This document shows, piece after piece, positions 14,091-26,164 of a stretch of DNA of 64,000 nt; within the stretch, counting starts at the first letter, position 1, and each line of letters begins with the position of its first letter. The DNA is taken from contig NZ_JAGQBB010000011.1 of assembly GCF_024345415.1 (NCBI RefSeq), positions 1 to 64,000 on the forward strand. Reading direction: 5' to 3'. Below the pieces are notes generated by a model. It did no database searches and was not told where the DNA came from. It was given only the letters and a program-made list of their open reading frames with translations. This DNA is from Synechococcus sp. Tobar12-5m-g (lineage in GTDB: Bacteria > Cyanobacteriota > Cyanobacteriia > PCC-6307 > Cyanobiaceae). The position numbers and the translations under genes are program-made.

Positions 14091-16002
14091 GGAAGACACC
14101 ACCCCTAGGACAGTGCTCCAGAAAACACACGGCCAGATTCAGATCCACACCGAGAACATCTTCCCGATCATCAAGAAGGCCGTCTATTCCGGCCATGAGG
14201 TGTTCCTGCGGGAGCTGGTGAGCAACGGTGTCGATGCGATCAGCAAGCGCCGCATGGCCGCCATGGCGGGGGATTGCAGCGAAGGGGAGGAAGGCAGGAT
14301 CCAGATCCGCATCAACCGGGAAGCCAGGACCATCACCATCAGTGACAACGGCATCGGCATGACCGCCGATGAGGTGAAGCGCTACATCAACCAGGTGGCC
14401 TTCTCCAGCGCCGAGGAATTCCTGGAGAAATACAAACGGGAGGACGACGCCATCATCGGCCACTTCGGCTTGGGCTTTTACTCCAGCTTCATGGTGGCGG
14501 CCAGCGTGGAACTGGTCAGCCTCAGTGCCAAGCCCGGCGCCGAGGCGGTGCGCTGGAGCTGTGACGGCTCCCCCAACTTCAGCCTTGAATCAGGCGAAAG
14601 GAAGGAAGCCGGAACCGATGTGATCCTGCACCTGCAGGAGGAAGAGATCGAGTACATCGAACCGTCTCGGATTCGCACGCTAATCACCACCTACTGCGAC
14701 TTCCTGCCAGTGGAAGTGCAGCTGGAGGGGGAAACGGTGAACAAACGCCAGGCCCCCTGGCGCCAGAGCTCTCGCGAACTCGCCGACAAGGACTACATCG
14801 ATCTTTACCACTACCTCTATCCCTTTCAGGGCGATCCCCTGCTCTGGGTGCATCTCAACACCGACTATCCCTACACCCTTCAGGGCATCCTCTACTTCCC
14901 CAGGCTCAGCGGCCGGGGCGACTGGGAAAAAGGTGAAATCCGCCTCTACTGCAACCAGGTGTTCGTGTCCGATTCGATCAAGGAGGTGGTGCCCCGCTAC
15001 CTGCTGCCCCTGCGCGGCGTGATCGATTCACCGGACATCCCCCTCAACGTGAGCCGCAGCGCGCTCCAGACCGACCGCCGGGTGCGCTCGATCGGTGGCT
15101 TCGTGGCCAAGAAGGTGGGCGACCGGCTCAAGCAACTGCAGAAGGATGAGCCGAAGCGGTTCGCCGAAATCTGGGAGGGGATCGCCCCCTTCATCAAGAT
15201 CGGCGCCATGGAAGATGACAAATTCGCCGAGCAGGTGGCGGATCTGGTGCTGTTCGGCACCACCGCCGAGGCGGCCGACACCGATCCGATCGCGGCCGAC
15301 GGCAAGACATTCACCACCCTGGCCGGCTACCGCAGCCGATTGGAGGCCAGCAATGACAAGCGCATCCTCTACTGCACCGATGAGGCGGGCCAGGCTGGCG
15401 CCCTCGCCCTCTGGCGCGGCCAGGGCGTCGAGGTGCTGCTGGCCGATTCGTTGATCGACGCCCAGTTCATCCCCTGGCTGGAATCCCGCCACAGCGAGCT
15501 CACCTTCCGCCGGGTCGATGCCGAACTCGACGACAGCCTCCAGGAGAAGGAGAGCGAACTCACCGATGCCCAGGGGAAAGACAGCTCTGAACAGCTGCGC
15601 AGCCTGTTCAAACAGGCCCTCACCAACGACAAGATCACCCTTCAGGTGCAGGCGCTCAAGGGGGAGAACGCCCCAGCCGCCCTGATCCTGCTGCCGGAGC
15701 AGATGCGCCGCATCAACGACATGGGCGCCCTGATGGAACAGCGCCTGCCCGGCCTGCCGGACCACCACGTGCTGCTGATCAACCGCCGCCATCCCCTGGT
15801 GGAAGGGCTGCTGAAGCTTTCCGCCGGGGCGGTGATCACCGGCGGCGGCGTCTCACCCAGCCGCCAACTGGCCGAGGAGCTCAGCCGTCACATCTACGAG
15901 CTGGCCCGTCTGTCGGTCGGCGGGCTCGAGCCCAACCAGCTGGCAGGCTTCCAGCAGCGCAGCTCCGACCTGATGGGACGGCTGATGCAACGGGGTCTCT
16001 GA
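14089..16002 (+). CDS. htpG: Molecular chaperone HtpG (Hsp90)
   Basis: Bacterial Hsp90 chaperone of 637 residues, which remodels client proteins with ATP; in cyanobacteria it is linked to heat and light stress. The GHKL ATPase domain shows FLRELVSNGVDAISK, ISDNGIGMTADEV and GHFGLGFYSSFMVA. The middle domain (LYCNQVFVSDSI, DSPDIPLNVSRSALQ) and the C-terminal dimerisation region are complete. I place the start at the ATG at 14089, which gives MEDTTPRTVLQ before the conserved GQIQIHTENIFPI; the frame stays open upstream into mobile-element debris. No Shine-Dalgarno-like sequence is visible ahead of this ATG, and the recombinase remnant occupies the normal promoter position. Confidence 0.95.
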   Translation: MEDTTPRTVLQKTHGQIQIHTENIFPIIKKAVYSGHEVFLRELVSNGVDAISKRRMAAMAGDCSEGEEGRIQIRINREARTITISDNGIGMTADEVKRYINQVAFSSAEEFLEKYKREDDAIIGHFGLGFYSSFMVAASVELVSLSAKPGAEAVRWSCDGSPNFSLESGERKEAGTDVILHLQEEEIEYIEPSRIRTLITTYCDFLPVEVQLEGETVNKRQAPWRQSSRELADKDYIDLYHYLYPFQGDPLLWVHLNTDYPYTLQGILYFPRLSGRGDWEKGEIRLYCNQVFVSDSIKEVVPRYLLPLRGVIDSPDIPLNVSRSALQTDRRVRSIGGFVAKKVGDRLKQLQKDEPKRFAEIWEGIAPFIKIGAMEDDKFAEQVADLVLFGTTAEAADTDPIAADGKTFTTLAGYRSRLEASNDKRILYCTDEAGQAGALALWRGQGVEVLLADSLIDAQFIPWLESRHSELTFRRVDAELDDSLQEKESELTDAQGKDSSEQLRSLFKQALTNDKITLQVQALKGENAPAALILLPEQMRRINDMGALMEQRLPGLPDHHVLLINRRHPLVEGLLKLSAGAVITGGGVSPSRQLAEELSRHIYELARLSVGGLEPNQLAGFQQRSSDLMGRLMQRGL

Positions 16003-16107
16003 GCTCCAGCCCCCGCAGGGCCAACAAGCTCCACGCCATGGGTGATCGAGCTGTTTGGTAGGGTTTCTTCTGGGCTGTGGCCCTGGATTCATATCGGTTC
16101 TGATTTC

Positions 16108-16344
16108 ATGTCCCGGGTCTGCCAACTCACCGGCAAGCGCGCCAACAACGGCATGGCTGTCAGCCACTCCCACGTGCGCACCAAGAAGCTCCAGCAGGTG
16201 AACCTGCAGGAGCGGCGCCTTTGGTGGGCAGAGGGCAACCGCTGGGTCAAACTGCGGGTCGCCACCCGCACCCTGCGCACCATCCAGAAAAAGGGCCTCG
16301 GTGCCTACGCCCGCGAGCTGGGCATCAACCTCGCCAAGATCTGA
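16108..16344 (+). CDS. rpmB: 50S ribosomal protein L28
   Basis: Large-subunit ribosomal protein of 78 residues. The start at 16108 gives [20 protein letters not shown], the standard bL28 N-terminus, followed by [13 protein letters not shown] and [20 protein letters not shown]; it ends [16 protein letters not shown]. Length and ending are those usual in cyanobacteria. It follows htpG with a 105-base gap. Confidence 0.96.
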
Positions 16345-16397
16345 GCGTCCAGCGTGGGCCTTGAAGCCCTCGCTCCGTCGCCAGGGGGCCTGAATTG

Positions 16398-16967
16398 GTG
16401 AACCGCCGCCAACTGCTTCACGGGGCTGCTCAAGGAGCCGCAGTTGTCGTCATCGGCCTGCTGGACGTTCCCCGGCAGGCCTTTGCACTGGGCGGCAGTT
16501 TGCCAGAGCTCAACCAACCTGCCCCTGATTTCGAGTTGTCGGGGGCGGGATTGGAGGAACTGGGAACCAGCGGGCTGGCCAGCCTGGCTAGCTTCCGGGG
16601 CCGCTGGCTGGTTCTGTATTTTTATCCCAAGGATTTCACCGGTGGCTGCACCCTGGAGGCCCGCGGGTTCCAGCGCGATCTCGCCGCCTTCCGCACCCGA
16701 GGCGCTGAGGTGGTGGGCGTCAGTGCCGACAGTCCTGACCAGCACGCCTCCTTCTGCGACAGCGAAGGCCTCCGCTTCCCCCTGCTCTCCGATCCCGGCG
16801 GACTGGTCAGCCGCCGGTACGGCTCCTGGATCCCACCGTTCTCCCAGCGCCACACCTTTCTGATTGATGCCGATGGGATGGTGCGGGCCCGCTGGGTGGC
16901 TGTGCGTCCCCTGGGCCACAGTCAGGAGGTCCTGGGGGAGCTCCAACGGCTGACCGAACCGGTCTGA
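16398..16967 (+). CDS. Peroxiredoxin, PrxQ/BCP type, exported
   Basis: Thiol peroxidase of about 190 residues that reduces hydrogen peroxide and organic peroxides. The N-terminus NRRQLLHGAAQGAAVVV has a twin-arginine-like pair and a hydrophobic core ending at QAFA, suggesting export to the periplasm or thylakoid lumen. The thioredoxin-fold core carries the peroxidatic cysteine in PKDFTGGCTLEARGFQ. In PrxQ a second cysteine normally lies five residues later; here that position is arginine, so the protein looks like a 1-Cys enzyme. A GTG at 16398 (or TTG at 16395) is the start. The metallophosphoesterase downstream also has a twin-arginine-type leader. Confidence 0.85.
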   Translation: MNRRQLLHGAAQGAAVVVIGLLDVPRQAFALGGSLPELNQPAPDFELSGAGLEELGTSGLASLASFRGRWLVLYFYPKDFTGGCTLEARGFQRDLAAFRTRGAEVVGVSADSPDQHASFCDSEGLRFPLLSDPGGLVSRRYGSWIPPFSQRHTFLIDADGMVRARWVAVRPLGHSQEVLGELQRLTEPV

Positions 16968-17041
16968 ACAGGGGGCATCAGGATTGGTTCTGGCGGCGCT
17001 GGGCAGGCCGATAGTTTGGGCATTGACTTACGCCTCCACCA

Positions 17042-17947
17042 ATGGAACCGAGGCCCATCACCCGCCGCGCCCTTTTCCGTTTGCTGGCAGGCTGCGGTCT
17101 GCTGGGAAGTCTCTGGCTTCGGCGGGCAGCCTGGGGCCAGCCGACCGCTCCAGGCAAGACCTCGGGTGATGGTCTCCGCTGGCTCGCAGTTGCCGACACC
17201 GGCGGCGGCAATGAGGCCCAGCGGTCTGTGGGCCGAGCCATGACGGCCGTCCATCGCAACCGGCCGGTGGACCTGGTGATCCTGGGGGGCGACAACATCT
17301 ACCCCAACGGCGACATCAGCCAGGCAAGGGAGAAGTTCACCATCCCCTATAAGGGCCTGCTCGATGCCGGGGTGCCCTTCCACGCCGTGCTGGGCAACCA
17401 CGACATCCGCACCGCCAATGGCAACCCCCAGGTGGCCTACCCCCCCTTCGGCATGAAGGGGCGCTGGTACACCCTGCGCCGCGGTCCGGTGGAATTCTTC
17501 ATGCTCGACACCAACGTCAATGCCCAATGGCGTCGGCAAATGCCCTGGCTGATGGAGGCCCTGGCCGCCAGCACGGCACCCTGGAAAGTGGTGGTGGGGC
17601 ACCACCCGATGCAATCCTCGGGCCACTACGGAAATGATGAGGCGGCCATGAACCGGCTTGCCCCCCTGTTTCGCACCGCCGGGGTTCAGCTGTACATCAA
17701 CGGGCACGACCACAACTACGAGCGCAGCAAGCCCATCAACGGCACCACGTACCTGGTGGTGGGTGGTGGTGGCGCCTACCTGCGGGATGTCGACCCAGGC
17801 CCCAACAGCGCCAGGGCCATCAGCGTGCACAGCTTTGCGGAACTCACCGCCAGCAAGGACAGGCTGGAGATCCAGGCCTGGGACAGCCGCGGCCGCTCGA
17901 TCGACCGGGCCGTGTTGGGACGTGATGGTCGCGTCGTCGGGGGTTGA
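17042..17947 (+). CDS. Metallophosphoesterase, purple-acid-phosphatase-like, exported
   Basis: Binuclear-metal phosphatase of 301 residues. The leader TRRALFRLLAGCGLLGSLWL, with paired arginines and a hydrophobic stretch, points to Tat export. The metal-binding motifs are in order: VADTGGG, ILGGDNIYPNGD, AVLGNHDIR, VVGHHPMQSS and YINGHDHNYER. A GGGGAYLRD stretch near the end is also seen in exported tartrate-resistant-like phosphatases. The likely role is releasing phosphate from organic phosphoesters outside the cytoplasm, but the substrate is unknown and no Pho-box-like repeat was recognised upstream. Confidence 0.88.
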   Translation: MEPRPITRRALFRLLAGCGLLGSLWLRRAAWGQPTAPGKTSGDGLRWLAVADTGGGNEAQRSVGRAMTAVHRNRPVDLVILGGDNIYPNGDISQAREKFTIPYKGLLDAGVPFHAVLGNHDIRTANGNPQVAYPPFGMKGRWYTLRRGPVEFFMLDTNVNAQWRRQMPWLMEALAASTAPWKVVVGHHPMQSSGHYGNDEAAMNRLAPLFRTAGVQLYINGHDHNYERSKPINGTTYLVVGGGGAYLRDVDPGPNSARAISVHSFAELTASKDRLEIQAWDSRGRSIDRAVLGRDGRVVGG

Positions 17948-18013
17948 GCGCAGGTCAGCGGCGAAGCATCGGCTGCTGATGGGATCGGAAACGATCCTTT
18001 AGACACCAGCCAA

Positions 18014-18208
18014 TTGTCTCTGCAAGCTCCCTTGCCGAACCTGGTGCCCGAAGCGATCCTTGCCGTCGTCGTTCCGTTCCTGTTCAAGCTGGTGGGGGCG
18101 GTCGCCAACGGGTCCAAACAGATGGCACCAGACGTGGAGGGGCTCGGCGGCAACGGCTTTCCCGGGATCCTGATCCCGCTGGCCCTGCAAAGCCCCGCGC
18201 CGAACTGA
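18014..18208 (+). CDS. Small hypothetical protein with one hydrophobic segment
   Basis: A TTG-initiated frame of 64 codons in the gap between the phosphatase and the pyruvyltransferase. Third codon positions are mostly G or C, as in real genes here, and it contains a hydrophobic stretch PEAILAVVVPFLFKLVGAV. No ATG, no clear ribosome-binding site and no recognised family. It may be a small membrane protein or a chance frame. Confidence 0.25.
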   Translation: MSLQAPLPNLVPEAILAVVVPFLFKLVGAVANGSKQMAPDVEGLGGNGFPGILIPLALQSPAPN

Positions 18209-18230
18209 ACCGGCGCTTCCAGGGAGCGGC

Positions 18231-19295
18231 TCAGGGCAAGGCAGTGGGCGGGCTGACCAGCCCCTGGACCAGCAACGCCCGGTGAACATGGGTGCCCTGT
18301 CTTTGGCGTTGGATCGCCGCCGAATCGGTTGGACGATCCAGAAGCCCTAGCCAGCTTTCGCAGAGCCGCTCGGCCACGAGAGGTTCATGGAGATCCACGC
18401 ACGGGCAGCCGATTCCCTCAGCTGCTGAGCGCACCTTGGGGTCGTAGCTGAGGGCTGCGCAGGGGGCTCCGGAGAGGGCCGCCAGGATCAACCCGTGGAG
18501 CCTCATGGCGATCACCAACCCGGCGCCGGCGAACCAAGCCTGGGCGGCTTCGGGGCTGCTGACCTCCACCAGGCTGCTGCGGCTCGCGAGTCTTGCAGGC
18601 AACCAGCCACGTCGATCCAGCTCCTCGAGCAGTCCCCGATCCTGGTCGAGGTGAAAGGGAAGCCAATGCACCGGCCGCCCGCCCTGCTCCGCCAGCTGAT
18701 CGAGGGCGGCGAGCAGCACCAGCCATCGCCCCTGATCGAGCAGGGGGCTCTGGCGCCAGCAAAGGATGATCGGGCCACCGGCCCCCGTCCAGGGCTGGGG
18801 CGGCAGTCCCCACACCGGGTCCGTGCCGATCGGGGCGTGAACCCCCCAGCGGGCCGCCAGGGCGGCGGAATCCGGATCGCGCCAGCTGATCCCACTGGCC
18901 AGGGGCAGCACCATCCGCACCAGGGCCCAGCTACGCCGGCGCCTCAAGGGACCCAGTCCCTGGCCCCAGAGCAGCACCGGCTTGCCCTGGAGCCGGGCGG
19001 CCACGATCAGTGCCACGTAGTAGAGGAGGCTGTTGAAGCTGGTGGCGTCCTGCAGCAGGCTGCCGCCGCCAAGCACCACGGCATCGCAGCCACCAAGAGC
19101 CCTCAGCACCGCCCGCAGGTTGCGGCGGGGGCAGGTGGCCACGGCGAAGCAGGCTTCCACCTGGGCCTGGTCGTGGGCAGTGACCACAGGCACCTGGTCT
19201 GGCGGCAACTGGCCCAGCAGAACCGCCAGCAGGGCGTCGTCGCCGAGGTTGTGTTCCCCGTAGTAACCGCAGAGCAGCACTTTTTTACACAACAC
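18231..19295 (-). CDS. csaB: Polysaccharide pyruvyl transferase (CsaB-like)
   Basis: Transferase that adds ketal-linked pyruvate from phosphoenolpyruvate to a cell-wall-associated polysaccharide; in CsaB systems the pyruvylated glycan anchors S-layer proteins. The family signature is clear: LCGYYGEHNLGDDALLAVLL at the N-terminus, DAVVLGGGSLLQDATS, GKPVLLWGQGLGPL, GISWRDPDSA and the C-terminal VIAMRLHGLILAALSGAPCA. The frame is open far upstream, but family proteins start just before KKVLLCGYYG; the GTG at 19295 gives 354 residues. The gene is divergent from the zinc-ribbon gene at 19536. Confidence 0.88.
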   Translation of the reverse strand: MLCKKVLLCGYYGEHNLGDDALLAVLLGQLPPDQVPVVTAHDQAQVEACFAVATCPRRNLRAVLRALGGCDAVVLGGGSLLQDATSFNSLLYYVALIVAARLQGKPVLLWGQGLGPLRRRRSWALVRMVLPLASGISWRDPDSAALAARWGVHAPIGTDPVWGLPPQPWTGAGGPIILCWRQSPLLDQGRWLVLLAALDQLAEQGGRPVHWLPFHLDQDRGLLEELDRRGWLPARLASRSSLVEVSSPEAAQAWFAGAGLVIAMRLHGLILAALSGAPCAALSYDPKVRSAAEGIGCPCVDLHEPLVAERLCESWLGLLDRPTDSAAIQRQRQGTHVHRALLVQGLVSPPTALP

Positions 19296-19535
19296 CGGCT
19301 GGGCAGCCAAAAAGCCTGAAGAACTCTGCGGCGAAGCATCGCACCACCACCGCGGCCCCGCCCGATGCCTGCCCCTGCATCTGCTGCCGACCCCCTGAAC
19401 CCTCTGCTGGCTGCTGTGTTCTCGCCTTCCCGCTCGAAGGCCCGCTCCGGCATCCTTCGACCCCGGCCCGCCTGGCTCCCCCATCCCCGCCACCTGCTGC
19501 CCAGGTCGCGCGGGGGGCTTGAAGCCTTGGGGACC

Positions 19536-21110
19536 ATGCCTTCTACACCTATCTGTCCCATGATCGGCTGGATTGGATCTATCCCGGCATTGGCACAACT
19601 CGTTCCTGGCGTCAACGACCTTGCCACCCTCTACCCAGAGGTGGCGAAGGAAGCTGACGGCTGGGACCCTTCGTCGGTCACTCCTGGCAGCAGCAAAAAG
19701 CTGTCCTGGCGATGCGAAAAGGGACACACCTGGCTCGCAAAGGTAAACGATAGAACACCTCCACAAAACAACGGTTGCCCTGTTTGTGGAGGTAGGCAGG
19801 TACTTGCAGGGTTCAACGACCTCGACACTCTTTTTCCGGAGGTTGCAGCAGAGGCTGATGGGTGGGACCCAAGAATAGTGACAGAAAAATCGCACAGGAA
19901 GCTGCCTTGGCGTTGTGAGAAAGGCCACACTTGGGAAGCGGTAGTGGCTAACAGAACACCACCAAACCCAGCTGGCTGTCCTTTCTGCTCAGGGCTCTAC
20001 GCAATAAAAGGTATCAATGATCTTGCCACTCTATTCCCTGAAGTCGCATCGGAAGCAGATGGCTGGGACCCTTGTATAGAGTTACCTAAGTCACACAAGA
20101 AGCGTCGTTGGCGTTGTGCAAAGAGTCACAACTGGCAAGCAAGGATAAGCAAAAGAACTCCCCCCGTTAGTCAGGGATGCCCAGTATGTTCAGGCCATCA
20201 AGTGCTTGTTGGATACAATGACCTTGCCACCCTTTACCCAGAGGTAGCAAAAGAGGCTGTGGGCTGGGACCCAACAACGGTTACGGCTGGGAGTAACAAA
20301 AAACTTTCGTGGCGTTGTGAAAAAGGCCACACTTGGAACGCAATGGTAAACATCAGAACTCCTCCCTCAAGTCATGGCTGTCCCTTTTGCTGTGGAAAAC
20401 AAGTGCTTGTTGGTTATAACGACCTTGCCACCCTTTATCCAATGGTGGCAAAGGATGCCGTGGGCTGGGACCCAACAACTGTTACGGCCGGGAGTAACAA
20501 AAAACTTTCGTGGTGTTGTGCAAAAGGCCACACCTGGAACGCCGCTGTTGGAAGCCGAACTCCTCCAAGAAACGGAAGGTGCCCAACTTGCCTTGGCAAA
20601 CAAGTGCTTGCTGGGTTCAACGACCTCACTTCCCAGTTCCCAGAAATTGCAGCTGAGGCTGACGGATGGGACCCCACAACAGTTACTGTGAAGTCCAATA
20701 GAATTTTACCCTGGAACTGCAACCAAGGGCACACTTGGCTTGCATCCGTAGCAAACAGAACGCCCCCAACTAGCAGCGGTTGTCCAGAGTGTGCTGAATA
20801 CGGCTTCAAACCAGGTTTACCAGCCTGGTTCTACCTCCTTGAGCGACCAGGAGAGCAGCAGCTCGGAGTCACCAACTACAAGGAGGACCGCCTCCGCACC
20901 CACGCCAATTTCGGCTGGCAGGAGCTGGAGGTGATTGGACCCTTCCCTGGCGACCAGGTGCTGGCTCTTGAGACGAAGCTGAAGCAGTGGCTCCGCAAGG
21001 AGGTGGGTCTGGTGCCAGGCACTCGCGAAAACTGGTTCACCGCACAGCTGGAGGTGAGGTCGTTGGCTGAGCTGAAGGCACGAAGCGGCGTAGTCAATCA
21101 CCTCTTCTGA
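19536..21110 (+). CDS. Six-fold treble-clef zinc-ribbon protein with C-terminal GIY-YIG-like domain
   Basis: Accessory protein of about 524 residues. It contains six tandem units of about 67 residues, each running from NDLATLYPEVA through GWDP and WRCEKGHTW to RTPP and a final GCPxC; the cysteine, the histidine of GH and the CPxC pair look like zinc ligands of the DUF4379 treble-clef domain. Residues after the sixth unit (WFYLLERPGEQQLGVTN, RLRTHANFGWQEL, LALETKLKQWL) resemble a GIY-YIG nuclease; the usual second tyrosine is Gln in QLG, while arginine and glutamate candidates remain. Start uncertain: ATG at 19536 or 19560; the frame is open from 19365. The repeat part has lower GC than its neighbours, suggesting transfer. 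Family members are linked to DNA-restriction-type enzymes, but its function is unknown. Confidence 0.75.
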   Translation: MPSTPICPMIGWIGSIPALAQLVPGVNDLATLYPEVAKEADGWDPSSVTPGSSKKLSWRCEKGHTWLAKVNDRTPPQNNGCPVCGGRQVLAGFNDLDTLFPEVAAEADGWDPRIVTEKSHRKLPWRCEKGHTWEAVVANRTPPNPAGCPFCSGLYAIKGINDLATLFPEVASEADGWDPCIELPKSHKKRRWRCAKSHNWQARISKRTPPVSQGCPVCSGHQVLVGYNDLATLYPEVAKEAVGWDPTTVTAGSNKKLSWRCEKGHTWNAMVNIRTPPSSHGCPFCCGKQVLVGYNDLATLYPMVAKDAVGWDPTTVTAGSNKKLSWCCAKGHTWNAAVGSRTPPRNGRCPTCLGKQVLAGFNDLTSQFPEIAAEADGWDPTTVTVKSNRILPWNCNQGHTWLASVANRTPPTSSGCPECAEYGFKPGLPAWFYLLERPGEQQLGVTNYKEDRLRTHANFGWQELEVIGPFPGDQVLALETKLKQWLRKEVGLVPGTRENWFTAQLEVRSLAELKARSGVVNHLF

Positions 21111-21160
21111 CCTTCTGTGAGTTATTACCTGGCGCCTCTGGTGCTGCTGCATAGGGAAAA

Positions 21161-21272
21161 GTGCGTCGCTCGACCGCCTGCGGCTTCCAGCTGAGCGGCG
21201 CCCACAACGCCGCGAAGAACATCCTCAACCGAGCGCTCGAAGGTTGAACCGGAGGATCAGCCGATGCCTCCG
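21161..21272 (+). pseudogene. IS200/IS605 TnpB C-terminal tail and end hairpin
   Basis: A frame of 28 codons reads STACGFQLSGAHNAAKNILN and RALEG before a TGA at 21245-21247. This matches the extreme C-terminus of TnpB, after its zinc ribbon (CG...NAAKNIL). Three bases later lies an inverted repeat CGGAGG (21250-21255)/CCTCCG (21267-21272), fitting the subterminal hairpin of such elements. The rest of the gene is gone. Confidence 0.65.
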
Positions 21273-21410
21273 TTGTTGCAACATGCCGCAAGTTTCGGGG
21301 GTTCCTCTCCTTTGGGGCCGCCCTGCCCTGGCCCTGTAGGAGCTGGCCGCCGCCTCCCCTGCTGCCGCCCACCTTGCGGCGGAAGTTCTCGTGAGCCATC
21401 ATCGGTATGC

Positions 21411-21635
21411 ATGAATAGCCACCAATCAATGGACAACACTGATGTACTTTACAATGGAACGACATACAGAAACTGGCGGATAAAGTCAATCACCAAAACT
21501 CCATATGGTTACATGTACGAGACAGCCGGACCTGGTCAAGAATTTTCAGGGATCATGCCAGGACTTCCGCATGAATCTATTGATGAATGCCTTAGAGCTG
21601 CAAAGGCAAGCATAGATACTGCCTTAGGGGTTTGA
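21411..21635 (+). CDS. Small hypothetical protein
   Basis: Frame of 74 codons from the ATG at 21411 (a second ATG is at 21429). The sequence has a beta-like N-terminal half (YNGTTYRNWRIKSITKTPY) and an acidic helix at the end (HESIDECLRAAKASIDTAL), the layout of small single-domain proteins. It is AT-richer than the core genome and sits between two transposase remnants, so it is probably acquired. No family recognised. Confidence 0.5.
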   Translation: MNSHQSMDNTDVLYNGTTYRNWRIKSITKTPYGYMYETAGPGQEFSGIMPGLPHESIDECLRAAKASIDTALGV

Positions 21636-21639
21636 CAGC

Positions 21640-21861
21640 ACCGACCGACGGCAGTGACAGCAGCACCGCCGGAGCCCGCCCCTGTTGCCGCAGGGTGGCG
21701 GACACCGTCAGCAGTCGGCTGCAACGGGCGGCAGCGCTGGCGCCCTGGACACCAAGGCTGATTTTTCGCTGAATCACCGACAGGCGCAGTGCTCATACTC
21801 CTGCGGAGAAGCCAGCGTCTACGGCGGCGTTGTTGCTGAGTTCGATGCCGGGTTGATCCAG
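21640..21861 (-). pseudogene. IS66-family transposase, C-terminal fragment
   Basis: Minus-strand reading gives LLDQPGIELSNNAA, then a nine-codon intrusion ending in a stop, then ALRLSVIQRKISLGVQGASA and RCSRLLTVSATLRQQGR. This is the C-terminal region of IS66 transposases with the conserved NNAAERALR junction interrupted. It is the part missing from the remnant at 12620-13735, though on the other strand and 8 kb away. Confidence 0.7.
21798..21830 (-). repeat. Short GC-rich dispersed repeat, copy C (weaker match)
   Basis: The intrusion that splits the IS66 NNAA/ALR junction. Its minus strand contains CCGTAG and GGCTTC spaced as in copy B (59598-59673), followed by a CCGC-containing block. The similarity to copies A and B is partial. 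Confidence 0.35.
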
Positions 21862-22048
21862 CAAAGCAAGACCCAGGTGGCCGCTCTGCCCTGCAGCATC
21901 TCCGCCAGCTGCGCACGGTGTGGCCCCATGCTGTTCGTTTCATACTGTCCCGTGTCAACCCCCCGCAGCCGCAGGCCAGCTTCATTGTTGGCGCAGCGGT
22001 GGGGGCGCGGGATCCGTACATTACGGATCACCCAGGGCGAAGCCAGCC

Positions 22049-22348
22049 ATGCATGCCCTCTCCCTGCCCACCTGGTGGATCCACATCGCCTCGGTGATCG
22101 AGTGGTTGTTGGCGATCGTGGCCGTGGTGAGCTGGGGTGAACGGCGCCAGGAAGGGGAATGGCGCTGGATTGCCATGGCGATGCTGCCGGCCCTGGTGAG
22201 CGCCATGGCGGCCTGCACCTGGCATCTGTTCGACAACCCCGAACAGCTCAAGGGCCTGGTGGTGTTGCAGGCGTTCACCACCCTGCTCGGCAATGGGGCC
22301 CTGGCCGCCGCCGCCTGGAATCTGCTGCCAGCGGAGACGAGGGCATGA
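22049..22348 (+). CDS. DUF2499 (Ycf49-like) membrane protein
   Basis: Membrane protein of 99 residues of the DUF2499 family, found in cyanobacteria and plastids (Ycf49). It starts MHALSLPTWWIHIASVIEW, a well-conserved opening, and has about three hydrophobic segments (LLAIVAVVSWG, MLPALVSAMAACTWHLF, AFTTLLGNGALAAAAW). Its TGA overlaps the ATG of the DUF3593 gene by four bases, so the two are probably translated together. The role is unknown; conservation in phototrophs suggests a thylakoid or plasma membrane function. Confidence 0.88.
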   Translation: MHALSLPTWWIHIASVIEWLLAIVAVVSWGERRQEGEWRWIAMAMLPALVSAMAACTWHLFDNPEQLKGLVVLQAFTTLLGNGALAAAAWNLLPAETRA

Positions 22349-22704
22349 GCGGGATCCTCTCCAGTACGGGCGTCTGGCTGCTGGAACCCCTGGCCTCGAT
22401 CGATCCCGCTCCCCTGTTCGTGCTCTCCCTGCTGCCCTATCTGGCCTTTCTGCGCTGGGCCGGCGCCAGCAAGCGGATGCCAAAGCTGGCCCTGCGGGGG
22501 TTCCAATTCACCCTGGTGTTCGTGGCCGTCACCATCGTCGCCGCGGTGATCGCGCAGCAGCAATTCGGCCGTCAGCTGGCCGATGTGGATGGATTGCACG
22601 GCGGTGCCGAGGCGTTCCTCACGGTCGGCAACCTGATGATCCTGCTGGGCTTCCGCCAGGACCCAACCACCACCATGGAACCGCCGGGTGATCCAGGCGC
22701 CTGA
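22345..22704 (+). CDS. DUF3593 membrane protein
   Basis: Small membrane protein of 119 residues of a family restricted to oxygenic phototrophs. Three hydrophobic segments are visible: LASIDPAPLFVLSLLPYLAF, FTLVFVAVTIVAAVIAQQ and AFLTVGNLMILLGF. The ATG at 22345 overlaps the stop of the DUF2499 gene. The next gene starts four bases after its stop, so three genes form one tight operon. No function is known. Confidence 0.85.
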   Translation: MSGILSSTGVWLLEPLASIDPAPLFVLSLLPYLAFLRWAGASKRMPKLALRGFQFTLVFVAVTIVAAVIAQQQFGRQLADVDGLHGGAEAFLTVGNLMILLGFRQDPTTTMEPPGDPGA

Positions 22705-22708
22705 TCCG

Positions 22709-23818
22709 ATGCCCTGCCTCCTGGCGACGCTGCGCAACGGCGCTTTGCTGGCTTTCAGCCTGGTGGCCCTGGGCCTTCCTGGGCAGGCGAACCCGGTCCT
22801 GCGGGTCGGAGTCACGGACGGATCCCAGCCCTGCAACTTTCGGGACGGGGGTTCCTGGCGCGGCATTGCGGTGGATCTGTGGAGCCGCATCGCCACCGAA
22901 GAGGGCCTTCCCTATGTGATCCAAGCCCAGCCCGACACCGCCACCCTCCTGGAGGCTGTGGAACGCGGTGATCTCGACATCGCCGTTGGCTGCCTGAACG
23001 TGTCGCCGGAGCGGTTGCAGCGGTTCCGGTTTACCTTGCCGTTCCAGGAGGAGGGCCAGGCGGTGCTGGTGCGGCGCAGCCGGCTCGACGTGGGCCGCGC
23101 CACGGCGCTGGCCCTGCTCAGTCCGGATCTGCTCCGGCTCCTCGGGGGGTTCCTGATGGCAACGGCGGTGGTGACCGTCGCCCTCTGGCGGATCGAGGGC
23201 CTTGGCCACCACCCCAGCACCGAGCGCGATGGCCGCAGGCGCTCCTTCGCCAAGATGTTTCAGATTCTGGCGACCGGTCCTGGCACCAACACCGTCGCCG
23301 TCACCACCCGCGGGCACGCCCTGGTGCTGGTGAGCTACCTCATCCGCATCGTCTCGGCGTCCTTGCTGGTCAGCTTCGTGACCCTGAACGTGGTGCGGCA
23401 ACCCCAGTTCGGCGGCCAGGATTCGATCCGTTCCCTCGACGATCTGGCCGGCAAGCGGGTCGGGGCCCGGCGGGGCAGCGTGAGCGAGGAGCTGCTCAGA
23501 AGCCTGAACCGAGGGTCCAGCCGGGCAGCGGTCGAGATCCTTCCCCTCCAGACGATCGAGCAGGCTGGCCCCCTGCTGCTCTCGAAGCGGGCCGACGCGG
23601 TGTTGGCCGACGATCTCCAGCTGCAGTACCTGAGCCAGCAACTCAGTGGCTCCCGCTTCGACCGGGTCCTGCGAGGAATCCGCCCGGAATCCCAGGCCTT
23701 CGCCCTCGGGCCTGCCCTGCCCGAAGCGATCGCCGAGCGGATCGATCGGCGCATCAGTGCGTTCAAGCGCAACGGAGTCGTGGCGGAGCTGCGCAGGAAC
23801 GAACTGAGCCCACCCTGA
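22709..23818 (+). CDS. Ionotropic glutamate receptor-like ligand-gated channel (GluR0-type)
   Basis: Protein of 369 residues with the prokaryotic iGluR architecture: signal peptide (cleavage after LPGQA, about residue 27), first half of a periplasmic amino-acid-binding domain (31-125, LRVGVTDGSQPCNF), first membrane helix (about 141-160), pore loop (about 180-200), second helix (about 203-226), then the second half of the binding domain (236-340, SLDDLAGKRVGARRGS). This split order distinguishes it from an ordinary ABC binding protein. The pore loop reads ATGPGTNTVAV instead of the potassium-channel-like TVGYG of GluR0, so ion selectivity is probably different. ATG 22709 is preferred over a GTG at 22688 that overlaps DUF3593. 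Ligand unknown. Confidence 0.8.
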   Translation: MPCLLATLRNGALLAFSLVALGLPGQANPVLRVGVTDGSQPCNFRDGGSWRGIAVDLWSRIATEEGLPYVIQAQPDTATLLEAVERGDLDIAVGCLNVSPERLQRFRFTLPFQEEGQAVLVRRSRLDVGRATALALLSPDLLRLLGGFLMATAVVTVALWRIEGLGHHPSTERDGRRRSFAKMFQILATGPGTNTVAVTTRGHALVLVSYLIRIVSASLLVSFVTLNVVRQPQFGGQDSIRSLDDLAGKRVGARRGSVSEELLRSLNRGSSRAAVEILPLQTIEQAGPLLLSKRADAVLADDLQLQYLSQQLSGSRFDRVLRGIRPESQAFALGPALPEAIAERIDRRISAFKRNGVVAELRRNELSPP

Positions 23819-23905
23819 GGGCGGCCGCCACTCCGGTGAACAAGTCTTAAGCAGTGGTGGTGGCAGGGGTGTTCCCCCGGAAGATGGGTCGTTGGTTACT
23901 GACCC

Positions 23906-24166
23906 ATGATGATCGCTCCGCTCCTGGCTCTGGCCCCCGCCTCGATCACCTGGTCCCCGAAGGTGGCCCTGGTGATGATCGTCTGCAATGTGATTGCCAT
24001 CGCCATCGGCAAGGCCACGATCAAGTACCCCTCTGAAGGGGCCGCCATGCCCAGCCCCCAGTTCTTCGGTGGTTTCGGCATCGGTGCAGTGCTCGGCACC
24101 ACCAGCCTCGGCCACATTTTCGGCATCGGCGCGATCCAGGGCCTTGCCTCCCGCGGCGTGCTCTGA
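23906..24166 (+). CDS. psaK: Photosystem I subunit PsaK
   Basis: Photosystem I reaction-centre subunit X, 86 residues, a peripheral two-helix thylakoid protein that binds chlorophyll and helps antenna coupling. Helix 1 is VALVMIVCNVIAIAIGKATI; the cytoplasmic loop YPSEGAAMPSPQFFGG and helix 2 with GAVLGTTSLGHIFGIGAI are characteristic. The N-terminal MMIAPLLALAPASITWSP is a short leader. Two ATGs occur at 23906 and 23909. A strong terminator follows at 24201-24227. Confidence 0.95.
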   Translation: MMIAPLLALAPASITWSPKVALVMIVCNVIAIAIGKATIKYPSEGAAMPSPQFFGGFGIGAVLGTTSLGHIFGIGAIQGLASRGVL

Positions 24167-24200
24167 AGCCGTTTAGGCCAACCGTGTTGCCCACAGCTTG

Positions 24201-24227
24201 GGCCGAGGTTTGTCCTCGGCCTTTTTT
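24201..24227 (+). terminator. Rho-independent terminator of psaK
   Basis: A perfect eight-base stem GGCCGAGG/CCTCGGCC with a five-base loop TTTGT is followed directly by six T residues. It lies 35 bases after the psaK stop and ahead of the convergent end of dxs. Confidence 0.9.
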
Positions 24228-24253
24228 GCTTGATCAGCCTTCGGGTGGCTTGA

Positions 24254-26164
24254 TCAAACAGCCAGCGGCTGGCGCCTGAGGGCAAGGACGAAGCGCCCGC
24301 GGATGCGTTCAGCCATCTGGCTCGGGGTGAGCCCCAGGGCCTGCAGGCTCTGGGATGGGCTGGCATGGTCCACCAGGACATCGGCAATGCCGATCCTGAA
24401 CACCGGAACCAGCACGTCGCTGTCGTTTAGGGACTCCACCACGGCGGCGCCGAACCCGCCAGCGATGGCTCCTTCTTCCATCGTCACCACCCGGCCGATG
24501 CGGCGGGCCAGGGGGACGATCAACGCCTCATCGAGGGGCCGCAGGAAGCGGGCATTCACCACCGCCGCCCTGACCCCGTTCTCCTGGAGCAAGCCGGCGG
24601 TGGCCATCGCCGGCGCCACCATGGCTCCGTAGGCCACGATCAACACGTCGTCCCCATCGGCGAGCTGCTCACCCCGTCCGATCTCGAGGGGTTCCCAGCC
24701 TTCCTCGGCGAGCGGCACCCCTTCCCCCTCACCCCTGGGGATGCGGATCGCGCAGGGTCCGTTGTGGTGGATCGCGGTGACAAGCATCCGCTGCAACTCA
24801 GCCTCGTCCTTGGGGGCCATCACCGTGAAATTCGGCACGGCCCGCAGGTAGCTGATGTCGTACTGGCCCTGGTGGGTGGGGCCATCAGCCCCGACGATGC
24901 CGGCCCGGTCGAGCACGAAGGTGACGGCAAGCTTCTGGATGCCCACATCGTGGATGAGCTGGTCGAAGGCTCGCTGCAGGAAGGTGCTGTAAATCGCCAC
25001 GACGGGTTTGAGGCCGGCGGTGGCCATCCCCGCCGCCATGGTGACAGCGTGCTGCTCGGCGATGCCCACATCGAAGTACTGGCTGGGCAGGGCCTTCTCG
25101 AGCAGGTCGAGGCCGGTGCCGGTGGCCATCGCGGCGGTGATCCCCACCACGGTGGGATCCTGCTCGCAAATCTTCACCAGGGTCTGGCCGAACACCTTGC
25201 TGTAACTCGGTGGCTTCGGCTTGCTGGAGGGGAAGGCCTTGCCGGTTTTCAGATCGAAGGCCGACTGGGCGTGGTAGCCCACCTGATCGGCCTCGGCATA
25301 GGGATAGCCCTTGCCCTTGGTGGTGGCCACGTGAACCAGCACTGGACCCTCGCAGCGGTGGGCCGCCTGGAAGGTGCGCACCATGTCGGCGATGTCGTGG
25401 CCATCGACCGGGCCCATGTAGGTGAAGCCCAGCTCCTCGAACACAGCACCCACCTTCGGCACGGACAGCCGTTTCATGCTCCCCTTGAGCGTCTTGAGCT
25501 CGGCCGGCAGCTCGCCGTGCAGGAAGGGCAGGTGCTTCACCGCCTCCTCGGCGCTGCCGGAGAGGAACTGCAGCGGCGGACTGAGCCGCATGCGGTTGAG
25601 GTACGTGGAGAGGGCCCCAACCGGCGGTGAGATCGACATGTCATTGTCGTTGAGCACCACCAGCAGCCGGGTTTTCGGCAGGTGGCCGGCGTGGTTGATC
25701 GCCTCCAGGGCCATGCCGCCGGTGAGGGCTCCATCGCCGATCACTGCCACGCATTTGAAGTCTTCGCCGCGGCGGTCACGGGCCAGGGCCATGCCCAGAG
25801 CCGCCGAGATGCTGGTGGAGGCGTGGCCGGCGCCGAAGTGGTCGAAGCGGCTCTCGCTGCGCTTGAGGTAGCCAGCCACCCCGCCCTGCTGGCGCAGGGT
25901 GTGGAACTGGTTGTAACGGCCGGTGATCAGCTTGTGGGGATAGGCCTGGTGGCCCACATCCCACACCACCCGGTCCCCATCCAGGTCAAGGGTTTGGTAA
26001 AGCGCCAGGGTGAGTTCCACAACCCCCAGGCCCGGGCCGAGGTGGCCACCGCTGGTGGAGACCACCTCCAGATGCTTCTCGCGGATCTGGCGGGCGATGG
26101 CTTCAAGCTCGCCGACGCTCAGTCCATGCAATTGGTTGGGATGGCTCAGCTCACTGAGGTGCAT
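24254..26164 (-). CDS. dxs: 1-deoxy-D-xylulose-5-phosphate synthase
   Basis: First enzyme of the MEP isoprenoid pathway: condenses pyruvate and glyceraldehyde-3-phosphate using thiamine diphosphate, feeding carotenoid, phytol and quinone synthesis. All landmarks of the 636-residue enzyme are present: [18 protein letters not shown], the ThDP/Mg motif [18 protein letters not shown] with NDNDMSIS, the VDGHD turn, [15 protein letters not shown] in the transketolase-type pyrimidine domain and [15 protein letters not shown]. The ATG at 26164 gives the family's usual [12 protein letters not shown] opening. Upstream it diverges from ilvA. Confidence 0.97.

Follow-up and report, generated by a model that had tools for sequence, protein, structure and literature searches.

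The closest described systems are selfish nuclease genes of bacteriophages. Passages of one paper devoted to them (PMC10448857) record that, of 229 putative homing endonucleases of the T5orf172 type in phages, 200 possess a zinc domain, namely CapR, DUF723 or a third one, which is printed as DUF4397 in the text and as DUF4379 in a figure legend. The same passages report recombination between the zinc repeats of these putative enzymes, a T5orf172 nuclease that requires a glutamate for activity, and a repressor, CapR, which is built of a related zinc domain; homing of the genes of phage ICP1 is there said to be without experimental verification. A further paper (PMC12350094) describes homing endonucleases of phage introns in which CapR/DUF4379-like domains are combined with an EDxHD/Vsr-like nuclease.

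A comparable architecture is encoded on the chromosome of Synechococcus sp. Tobar12-5m-g (2.95 Mb in 47 contigs), of which we analysed one stretch of 64,000 nucleotides, hereafter the window (Table 1). The gene is an intact reading frame of 581 aa on the + strand, which runs from an ATG at 19365 to a stop at 21110. Its start is uncertain, as later in-frame starts are present, among them that of the tabulated span, and the part homologous to relatives begins only near 19605. As the initial annotation had stated, the gene is divergent from its neighbor csaB (PF04230) and AT-richer than its surroundings, with a GC content of 53.9% versus 64.2% for the window; values as low or lower occur in 58 of 625 stretches of the same length. 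Those relatives that lie in named genomes come from picocyanobacteria, namely Synechococcus sp. CS-1332 and two Prochlorococcus records.

Table 1. Features of the nuclease gene and of the insertion that contains it (window coordinates)
Feature	Position	Strand	Basis
Gene: six DUF4379 units and a divergent, predicted GIY-YIG domain	19536..21110	+	ORF, Pfam, unit alignment
Six tandem treble-clef (DUF4379) units, putative DNA-binding array	19605..20795	+	PF14311, E=6.2e-71
C-terminal predicted GIY-YIG-fold domain, T5orf172-like	20796..21107	+	Residues, AF2 model, hhalign
Inserted block of ~2.7 kb, csaB to DUF2499 gene	19278..21992		blastn; ends approximate (alignment ends)
TnpB-like C-terminal tail remnant, 30 residues, STACGFQLSGAHNAAKNILNRALEG and stop	21155..21247	+	Frame translation
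Small ORF of 68 aa	21429..21635	+	ORF call; AT-rich stretch, 43.6% GC
Repeat piece	21675..21794		Like two other places in the same genome: 74% over 120 bases, 85% over 48

The N-terminal array had initially been described as six near-identical units of 67 residues. The PF14311 (DUF4379) profile matches the protein in six stretches (234.9 bits against a gathering score of 24.5), each of which is individually above the cut-off, and at E<=0.001 finds no further place in the genome (2.95 Mb); two of 14 control genomes also gave matches to this profile. The six treble-clef units are thus borne out, but the last of them is 61 aa long, the other five being of 67 aa, and pairwise identities of 51-79% (the closest pair being units 4 and 5, at 79%) make them related rather than near-identical. 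We aligned 31 units from six proteins: six from the window, nine from L015, seven from L003, four from L017, and two and three from L016 and L004, respectively, both of which are truncated at a contig end. Among copies with both ends intact, the number of units is four, six, seven or nine. The invariant positions across the 31 units are N3, D4, P10, A13, A16, W19, W34, C36, H40, R49, C57 and C60, so that all four presumed zinc ligands (C36 and H40 in a C-x3-H motif, C57 and C60 in a C-x2-C motif) are kept throughout. Variation is greatest at positions 26, 29, 33, 37, 43, 45, 47, 48, 53 and 55; in the segment between H40 and R49, variable residues for the most part take turns with conserved ones, a pattern that by its spacing would suit a strand with one exposed face. 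At the variable positions pN/pS is 0.89, versus 0.39 for the rest (calculated from 35 of 82 unit pairs, after removal of those with pS of at least 0.70), which points to weaker constraint; as the ratio does not exceed 1, positive selection on these positions was rejected and retargeting driven by it is without support. In an AF2 model of two units together with the nuclease, the units were predicted with low confidence (whole-model pLDDT 66.7), and none of our claims on the unit fold is based on it. We tentatively raise the idea, to which we give a rather low likelihood, that the arrays in picocyanobacteria act as a modular, re-targetable DNA reader, in which gain, loss and divergence of units would reprogram the site cut by the GIY-YIG domain, for use either selfishly or against mobile DNA. 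Under this speculative scheme, the zinc frame of each unit would be held constant and one face of a hairpin, formed by alternate residues after the histidine of the GHxW motif, would vary.

The C-terminal domain had been likened to GIY-YIG nucleases, with Gln in place of the second tyrosine, and structure prediction, a survey of Tyr, Arg and Glu in homologs and a survey of their neighbors had been proposed as checks. The last 104 aa alone matched no Pfam or NCBIfam family. Their alignment comprises 12 rows, ten of them cyanobacterial and two from actinobacterial plasmids; Y13, G24 and E59 are present in 12/12 rows and R32 and H36 in 11/12, and the position of the YIG tyrosine (22) is occupied by Gln in 10/10 cyanobacterial rows, as claimed, and by Lys in 2/2 actinobacterial rows. 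We take Y13, R32 and E59 to be equivalent to the active-site residues of I-TevI and UvrC; the window protein would accordingly possess the GIY tyrosine, the arginine of the first helix and the metal-binding glutamate of the superfamily and lack the YIG tyrosine. The two actinobacterial plasmid proteins (L023 6001-6288 and L024 6001-6222) have cysteine-rich repeats and a KxG version of the domain. An AF2 model of the last 104 aa, built from four sequences, reached a pLDDT of 93.5 and has strands at residues 9-17, 20-26 and 42-51 and helices at 29-38 and 52-70, i.e. the strand-strand-helix-strand-helix order of the GIY-YIG fold (hairpin, helix, third strand, helix). Foldseek searches with this model gave nothing at E<=0.001, the best match being a UPF0213 protein at E 1.0, and a sequence search of solved structures gave 0 matches. 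VIA-align placed Slx1 or At-HIGLE in 8 of its top 9 rows at middling Z scores of 4.3-4.9 (4.9 being the highest); UvrC scored 3.1-3.3, and the top rows also included a phycobilisome chain, which is unrelated, at 4.5. Slx1, At-HIGLE, UvrC or UPF0213 make up 15 of the 27 rows listed; we count At-HIGLE and UPF0213 as GIY-YIG proteins, and the VIA-align result taken alone would be weak evidence for this fold. The GIY-YIG profile PF01541 matched 4/12 members of the family below cut-off (E 2.3e-4, 0.016, 0.018 and 0.25), the best match scoring 21.8 bits versus a gathering score of 22.6, and did not match the window protein itself; T5orf172 matched 1/12 members below cut-off (E 0.013). As unrelated families are listed from E 0.011, only the best PF01541 match (2.3e-4) carries weight.

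The strongest link was to a phage protein, in an hhalign comparison with a protein of Aeromonas phage Ahp1_CNU-2021 (96.7%, E=3.1e-10, 93 columns), for which an unrelated control gave 0.1%; a single-pair blastp of this phage protein against the C-terminal domain gave E=5e-6 over 37 columns. Profile comparison with a protein of the T5-like phage SelmaRatti, which is itself above the T5orf172 cut-off, reached only 26.8% (E=6.8e-4). The Aeromonas phage domain in turn matches 228 phage records, itself included, and a nuclease name appears in 10 of the 25 rows listed. Searches with the whole window protein recovered phage sequences mainly via the repeats: this holds for 20 phage records found by tblastn and for PHROG 681 'endonuclease' (E=1.3e-38) and PHROG 559 'HNH endonuclease' (E=1.5e-17). 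The C-terminal domain alone found no phage homolog by tblastn at E<=0.01, and three scans of viral_contigs yielded none that was confirmed. Four of the 20 phage proteins were examined. L066 has DUF4379, CapR, T5orf172 and MUG113 above cut-off; L064, from an Aeromonas phage, passes the cut-off for CapR and DUF4379, has a sub-threshold T5orf172 match and adjoins a gene annotated as rIIA/rIIB-like; L063 has DUF4379, DUF723 and CapR above cut-off and a sub-threshold GIY-YIG match, and directly follows a helicase gene; L065, whose gene is flanked by those for a helicase and a primase, combines DUF4379 with another kind of C-terminus. By its match to the Aeromonas phage protein, the window protein shares with the phage CapR/DUF4379-T5orf172 putative homing endonucleases a zinc-finger array joined to a homologous T5orf172-type nuclease domain. 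From the AF2 model, the sub-threshold GIY-YIG match of one relative and the 96.7% phage profile match we mark the C-terminal domain as a predicted, divergent GIY-YIG nuclease, in agreement with the initial annotation.

That annotation had also allowed for a catalytically dead DNA-binding protein. Such a regulator, resembling the CapR-type repressors and having a degenerate GIY-YIG domain, would fit the uniform Gln of the cyanobacterial rows and the repressor role of the related CapR (PMC10448857). However, the YIG position is Lys in the phage proteins L064 and L066 and Tyr (a canonical YIG) in L063, so Gln at this place is not a sign of a dead enzyme, and the Lys of the two phage proteins indicates that the YIG tyrosine alone does not define membership of the superfamily. 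The conservation of Tyr13, Arg32 and Glu59 and the glutamate-dependent T5orf172 nuclease described in the passages cited above (PMC10448857) likewise argue against loss of catalysis, and we consider a regulator without nuclease activity improbable.

The genomic setting of the gene suggests that it is a newcomer at this site. Blastn reveals an empty site in G083, where window positions 19277 and 21993 correspond to 1994 and 2018 of L031, and in G048, where 19280 and 22015 correspond to 7831 and 7690 of L032; csaB and the DUF2499 gene are adjacent in these genomes, with 23 and 140 bases, respectively, between the matched stretches. The site is empty in 2/2 other genomes of the same genus in which csaB was found, csaB not being found in the less complete G108. 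The inserted block additionally contains what appear to be remains of mobile elements. The TnpB tail reported initially is readable 45 bp downstream of the nuclease gene but has no Pfam match, and we presume its identity from a motif only. The repeat piece is possibly an IS relic, and one of its two counterparts elsewhere in the genome adjoins a possible transposase fragment (DUF772, E=0.035, below cut-off). The small downstream gene of the initial annotation is present, and matches to it occur in 2/300 family genomes (its own and G131), both within 1 kb of the nuclease gene, with no other match among 386 genomes of the phylum, no Pfam match and no plasmid match; it is a possible partner gene of the nuclease. 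A palindrome-like element, TCCGTACATTACGGA, at 22013-22027, upstream of the DUF2499 gene, is identical in G083 and has one difference in G048, and is possibly a regulatory site. Flank alignments displayed no precise target or target-site duplication. Terminal inverted repeats were sought and rejected, as none of seven imperfect pairs in 19200-22060 joins both ends of the insertion, and likewise an intron or structured RNA around the gene, there being no Rfam match at E<=1 in 19000-22300. A recoded target in csaB was also dismissed: identities of 69.1% (window-G083), 66.0% (window-G048) and 67.3% (G083-G048) mean that the window is no more diverged than the gene-free relatives are from each other, and hence there is no signal of target recoding. 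With no such target in view there and with other debris inside the block, the insertion does not look like a textbook case of homing. The TnpB-like tail and the repeated piece within the same insertion could even suggest that the gene is carried along as a passenger in the remains of an insertion-sequence block and has already lost its function in the present genome. We regard this as very unlikely: the reading frame is intact, no TnpB was noticed by eye beside the relatives, and purifying selection acts on the C-terminal domain, with a dN/dS of ~0.11 to the nearest relative (dS near saturation) and 0.09-0.40 in other, unsaturated pairs.

The distribution of the domain is patchy: it occurs in 8/300 family genomes, its own included, and in 0/3 other genomes of the genus, which together with the empty alleles in G083 and G048 is as in a homing gene. 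The point of insertion changes from genome to genome, which is unlike homing into a single conserved site. A profile search across 386 genomes of the phylum returned its own genome and three weak matches (E 1.2e-4 to 2.2e-4), which were dropped as a simple motif script listed no zinc-array protein at those loci. Copies lie downstream of argJ, at ~0.1 kb in G129 and AG-670-N10 and at 2.1 kb in AG-311-J23, and a broken, frameshifted copy lies 4.4 kb downstream of it in G275; in a chosen set of 19 argJ regions that were read, a copy is there in 4 and not in 15, though 3 of these 15 genomes carry one elsewhere. Gene content 3' of argJ (L003, L004, L017, L022) varies strongly among these 19 regions, which may be an island hot spot. 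The flanks downstream of nine copies have nothing common to all nine; the longest common stretch, of 20 bases between L017 and L003, is by position within argJ and was rejected as a conserved flank. A tRNA-Ser is located near the G021 copy, and no tRNA was found in 15000-26000 of the window.

Comparison of argJ with the C-terminal domain is informative as to descent. Between G129 and AG-311-J23 argJ is 91% identical and the domains 56%, whereas between AG-311-J23 and G021 argJ is 59% identical and the domains 62%; the descent of the gene is thus not simply vertical, though fast evolution or old paralogy could contribute. A small tree of the domain resolves only the pairing of the window with G131 (96/95). 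In the G133 and G073 copies the N-terminal part is divergent or of another kind, an indication of domain shuffling. The G073 protein (L020 6804-8012) is of the same nuclease type, and its different N-terminal region has no Pfam match and one zinc-like unit by eye. The gene was most likely acquired from elsewhere. Of the options offered by the initial annotation, that of a nuclease associated with mobile DNA is supported by the empty site in relatives, the patchy distribution, the phage homolog, the predicted fold and the conserved Tyr, Arg and Glu.

The neighbors of the relatives raise the question of defense. In G133 a UzuA gene (L019 5426-6268, PADLOC E=7.1e-74) is located about 0.6 kb from the divergent copy, which has a weak integrase match (E=0.0027, below cut-off) directly upstream; an HNH_2 gene is near the G100 copy, and a PD-(D/E)XK gene, also Cas4-like, near that of G129. 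In G073 the next gene encodes an MkoA-like helicase (PADLOC E=2.8e-50), which we suspect may be a housekeeping protein. Some relatives are therefore near defense-like or nuclease genes, but no defense gene was recognized by eye near the window copy. These neighbors were picked by eye, with 10 proteins per scan and other loci not scanned alike, and the proximity is hence suggestive and not a test. A restriction role, also suggested initially, finds nothing positive beyond a weak PADLOC match of the window protein (E=1.1e-5) within one repeat, and no cognate methyltransferase was recognized by eye among the ORFs at 15000-26000. A 253-aa protein near the G131 copy (L015 4420-5178, - strand), without a Pfam match at E<=0.1, has a segment, VLYLARMRNYPGFVKIGIA, which by eye resembles a GIY-YIG/T5orf172-type domain. 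A host-recruited defense nuclease, i.e. a derivative of a homing endonuclease that now cuts phage, satellite or plasmid DNA, would be consistent with these neighborhoods and with the purifying selection on the C-terminal domain, and has a precedent in Odn of phage ICP1, which is described as cutting a satellite origin (PMC10448857). The mode of choosing neighbors, the perhaps housekeeping helicase, the lack of a recognized defense gene at the window copy, the weak PADLOC match, and the rarity of copies, one of them broken, count against it, and we hold defense to be a minority possibility.

Based on these observations we propose, with a probability of about 0.65, that the gene encodes a horizontally moving, sequence-specific predicted endonuclease with the architecture of the phage CapR/DUF4379-T5orf172 putative homing endonucleases. 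What is observed is the domain make-up, the predicted fold, the active-site residues, purifying selection, the insertion relative to two genomes, and a patchy, non-vertical distribution. The mechanism might be envisaged as follows: the gene was probably inserted between csaB and the DUF2499 gene together with the apparent mobile-element remains; the six zinc-stabilized units of its product would hold DNA, and the C-terminal T5orf172-like domain would cut it by means of the conserved Tyr and Arg and a Glu-bound metal. The simplest account of its persistence would be selfish spread or repeated horizontal transfer, and changes in the number and sequence of units may retarget the nuclease, homing or such retargeting being the putative reason for which it is retained. 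Our best reading is that of a candidate endonuclease gene which is either still selfish or recruited by the host.

Selfish nuclease genes of phages are known to have this architecture, which seems little described in bacterial chromosomes; the cyanobacterial branch seems to be new, the open-access literature searched containing no recognized account of it. With it, an architecture described in phages is extended to chromosomes of cyanobacteria that are of major ecological importance, and the GIY-YIG enzymes gain a branch missed by the profile libraries used here. The long, evolving zinc arrays beside a nuclease also provide natural test cases for modular DNA reading by zinc domains.

Several known systems share parts of this organization. 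The Uzume protein UzuA near the G133 copy, which displays a sub-threshold GIY-YIG match of its own, is a different protein and was not recognized near the window copy. The plant EFFECTOR OF TRANSCRIPTION (ET) proteins (PMC6585611, passages) combine a variable number of zinc- and DNA-binding repeats with a GIY-YIG nicking domain; they are regulators found in plants, their nuclease lies in the N-terminal half, and they are likened by architecture alone. The phage-intron enzymes of the EDxHD/Vsr type, as presented in the paper cited above (PMC12350094), have three to five CapR/DUF4379-like domains of ~60 aa followed by a C-terminal nuclease of ~100 aa, but this nuclease is not of the GIY-YIG type and is intron-encoded, unlike the window gene, around which 19000-22300 holds no Rfam family. 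Odn of ICP1 is similarly a T5orf172 nuclease of homing-endonuclease origin turned on a rival element, but it is phage-encoded and its DNA-binding domain is RepA_N and not a zinc array (PMC10448857, passages on Odn). The nearest counterparts are the phage T5orf172 putative homing endonucleases with CapR, DUF723 or DUF4379 zinc fingers from ICP1, Vibrio phages and coliphages, which in the relevant passages of PMC10448857 have tandem zinc units at one end and a nuclease of the GIY-YIG superfamily at the other, change in unit number, and are patchy and sometimes broken. In contrast to these, the genes described here reside in cyanobacterial chromosomes, belong to a nuclease branch without a Pfam match above cut-off, bear QxG at the YIG position, and have arrays of up to nine units.
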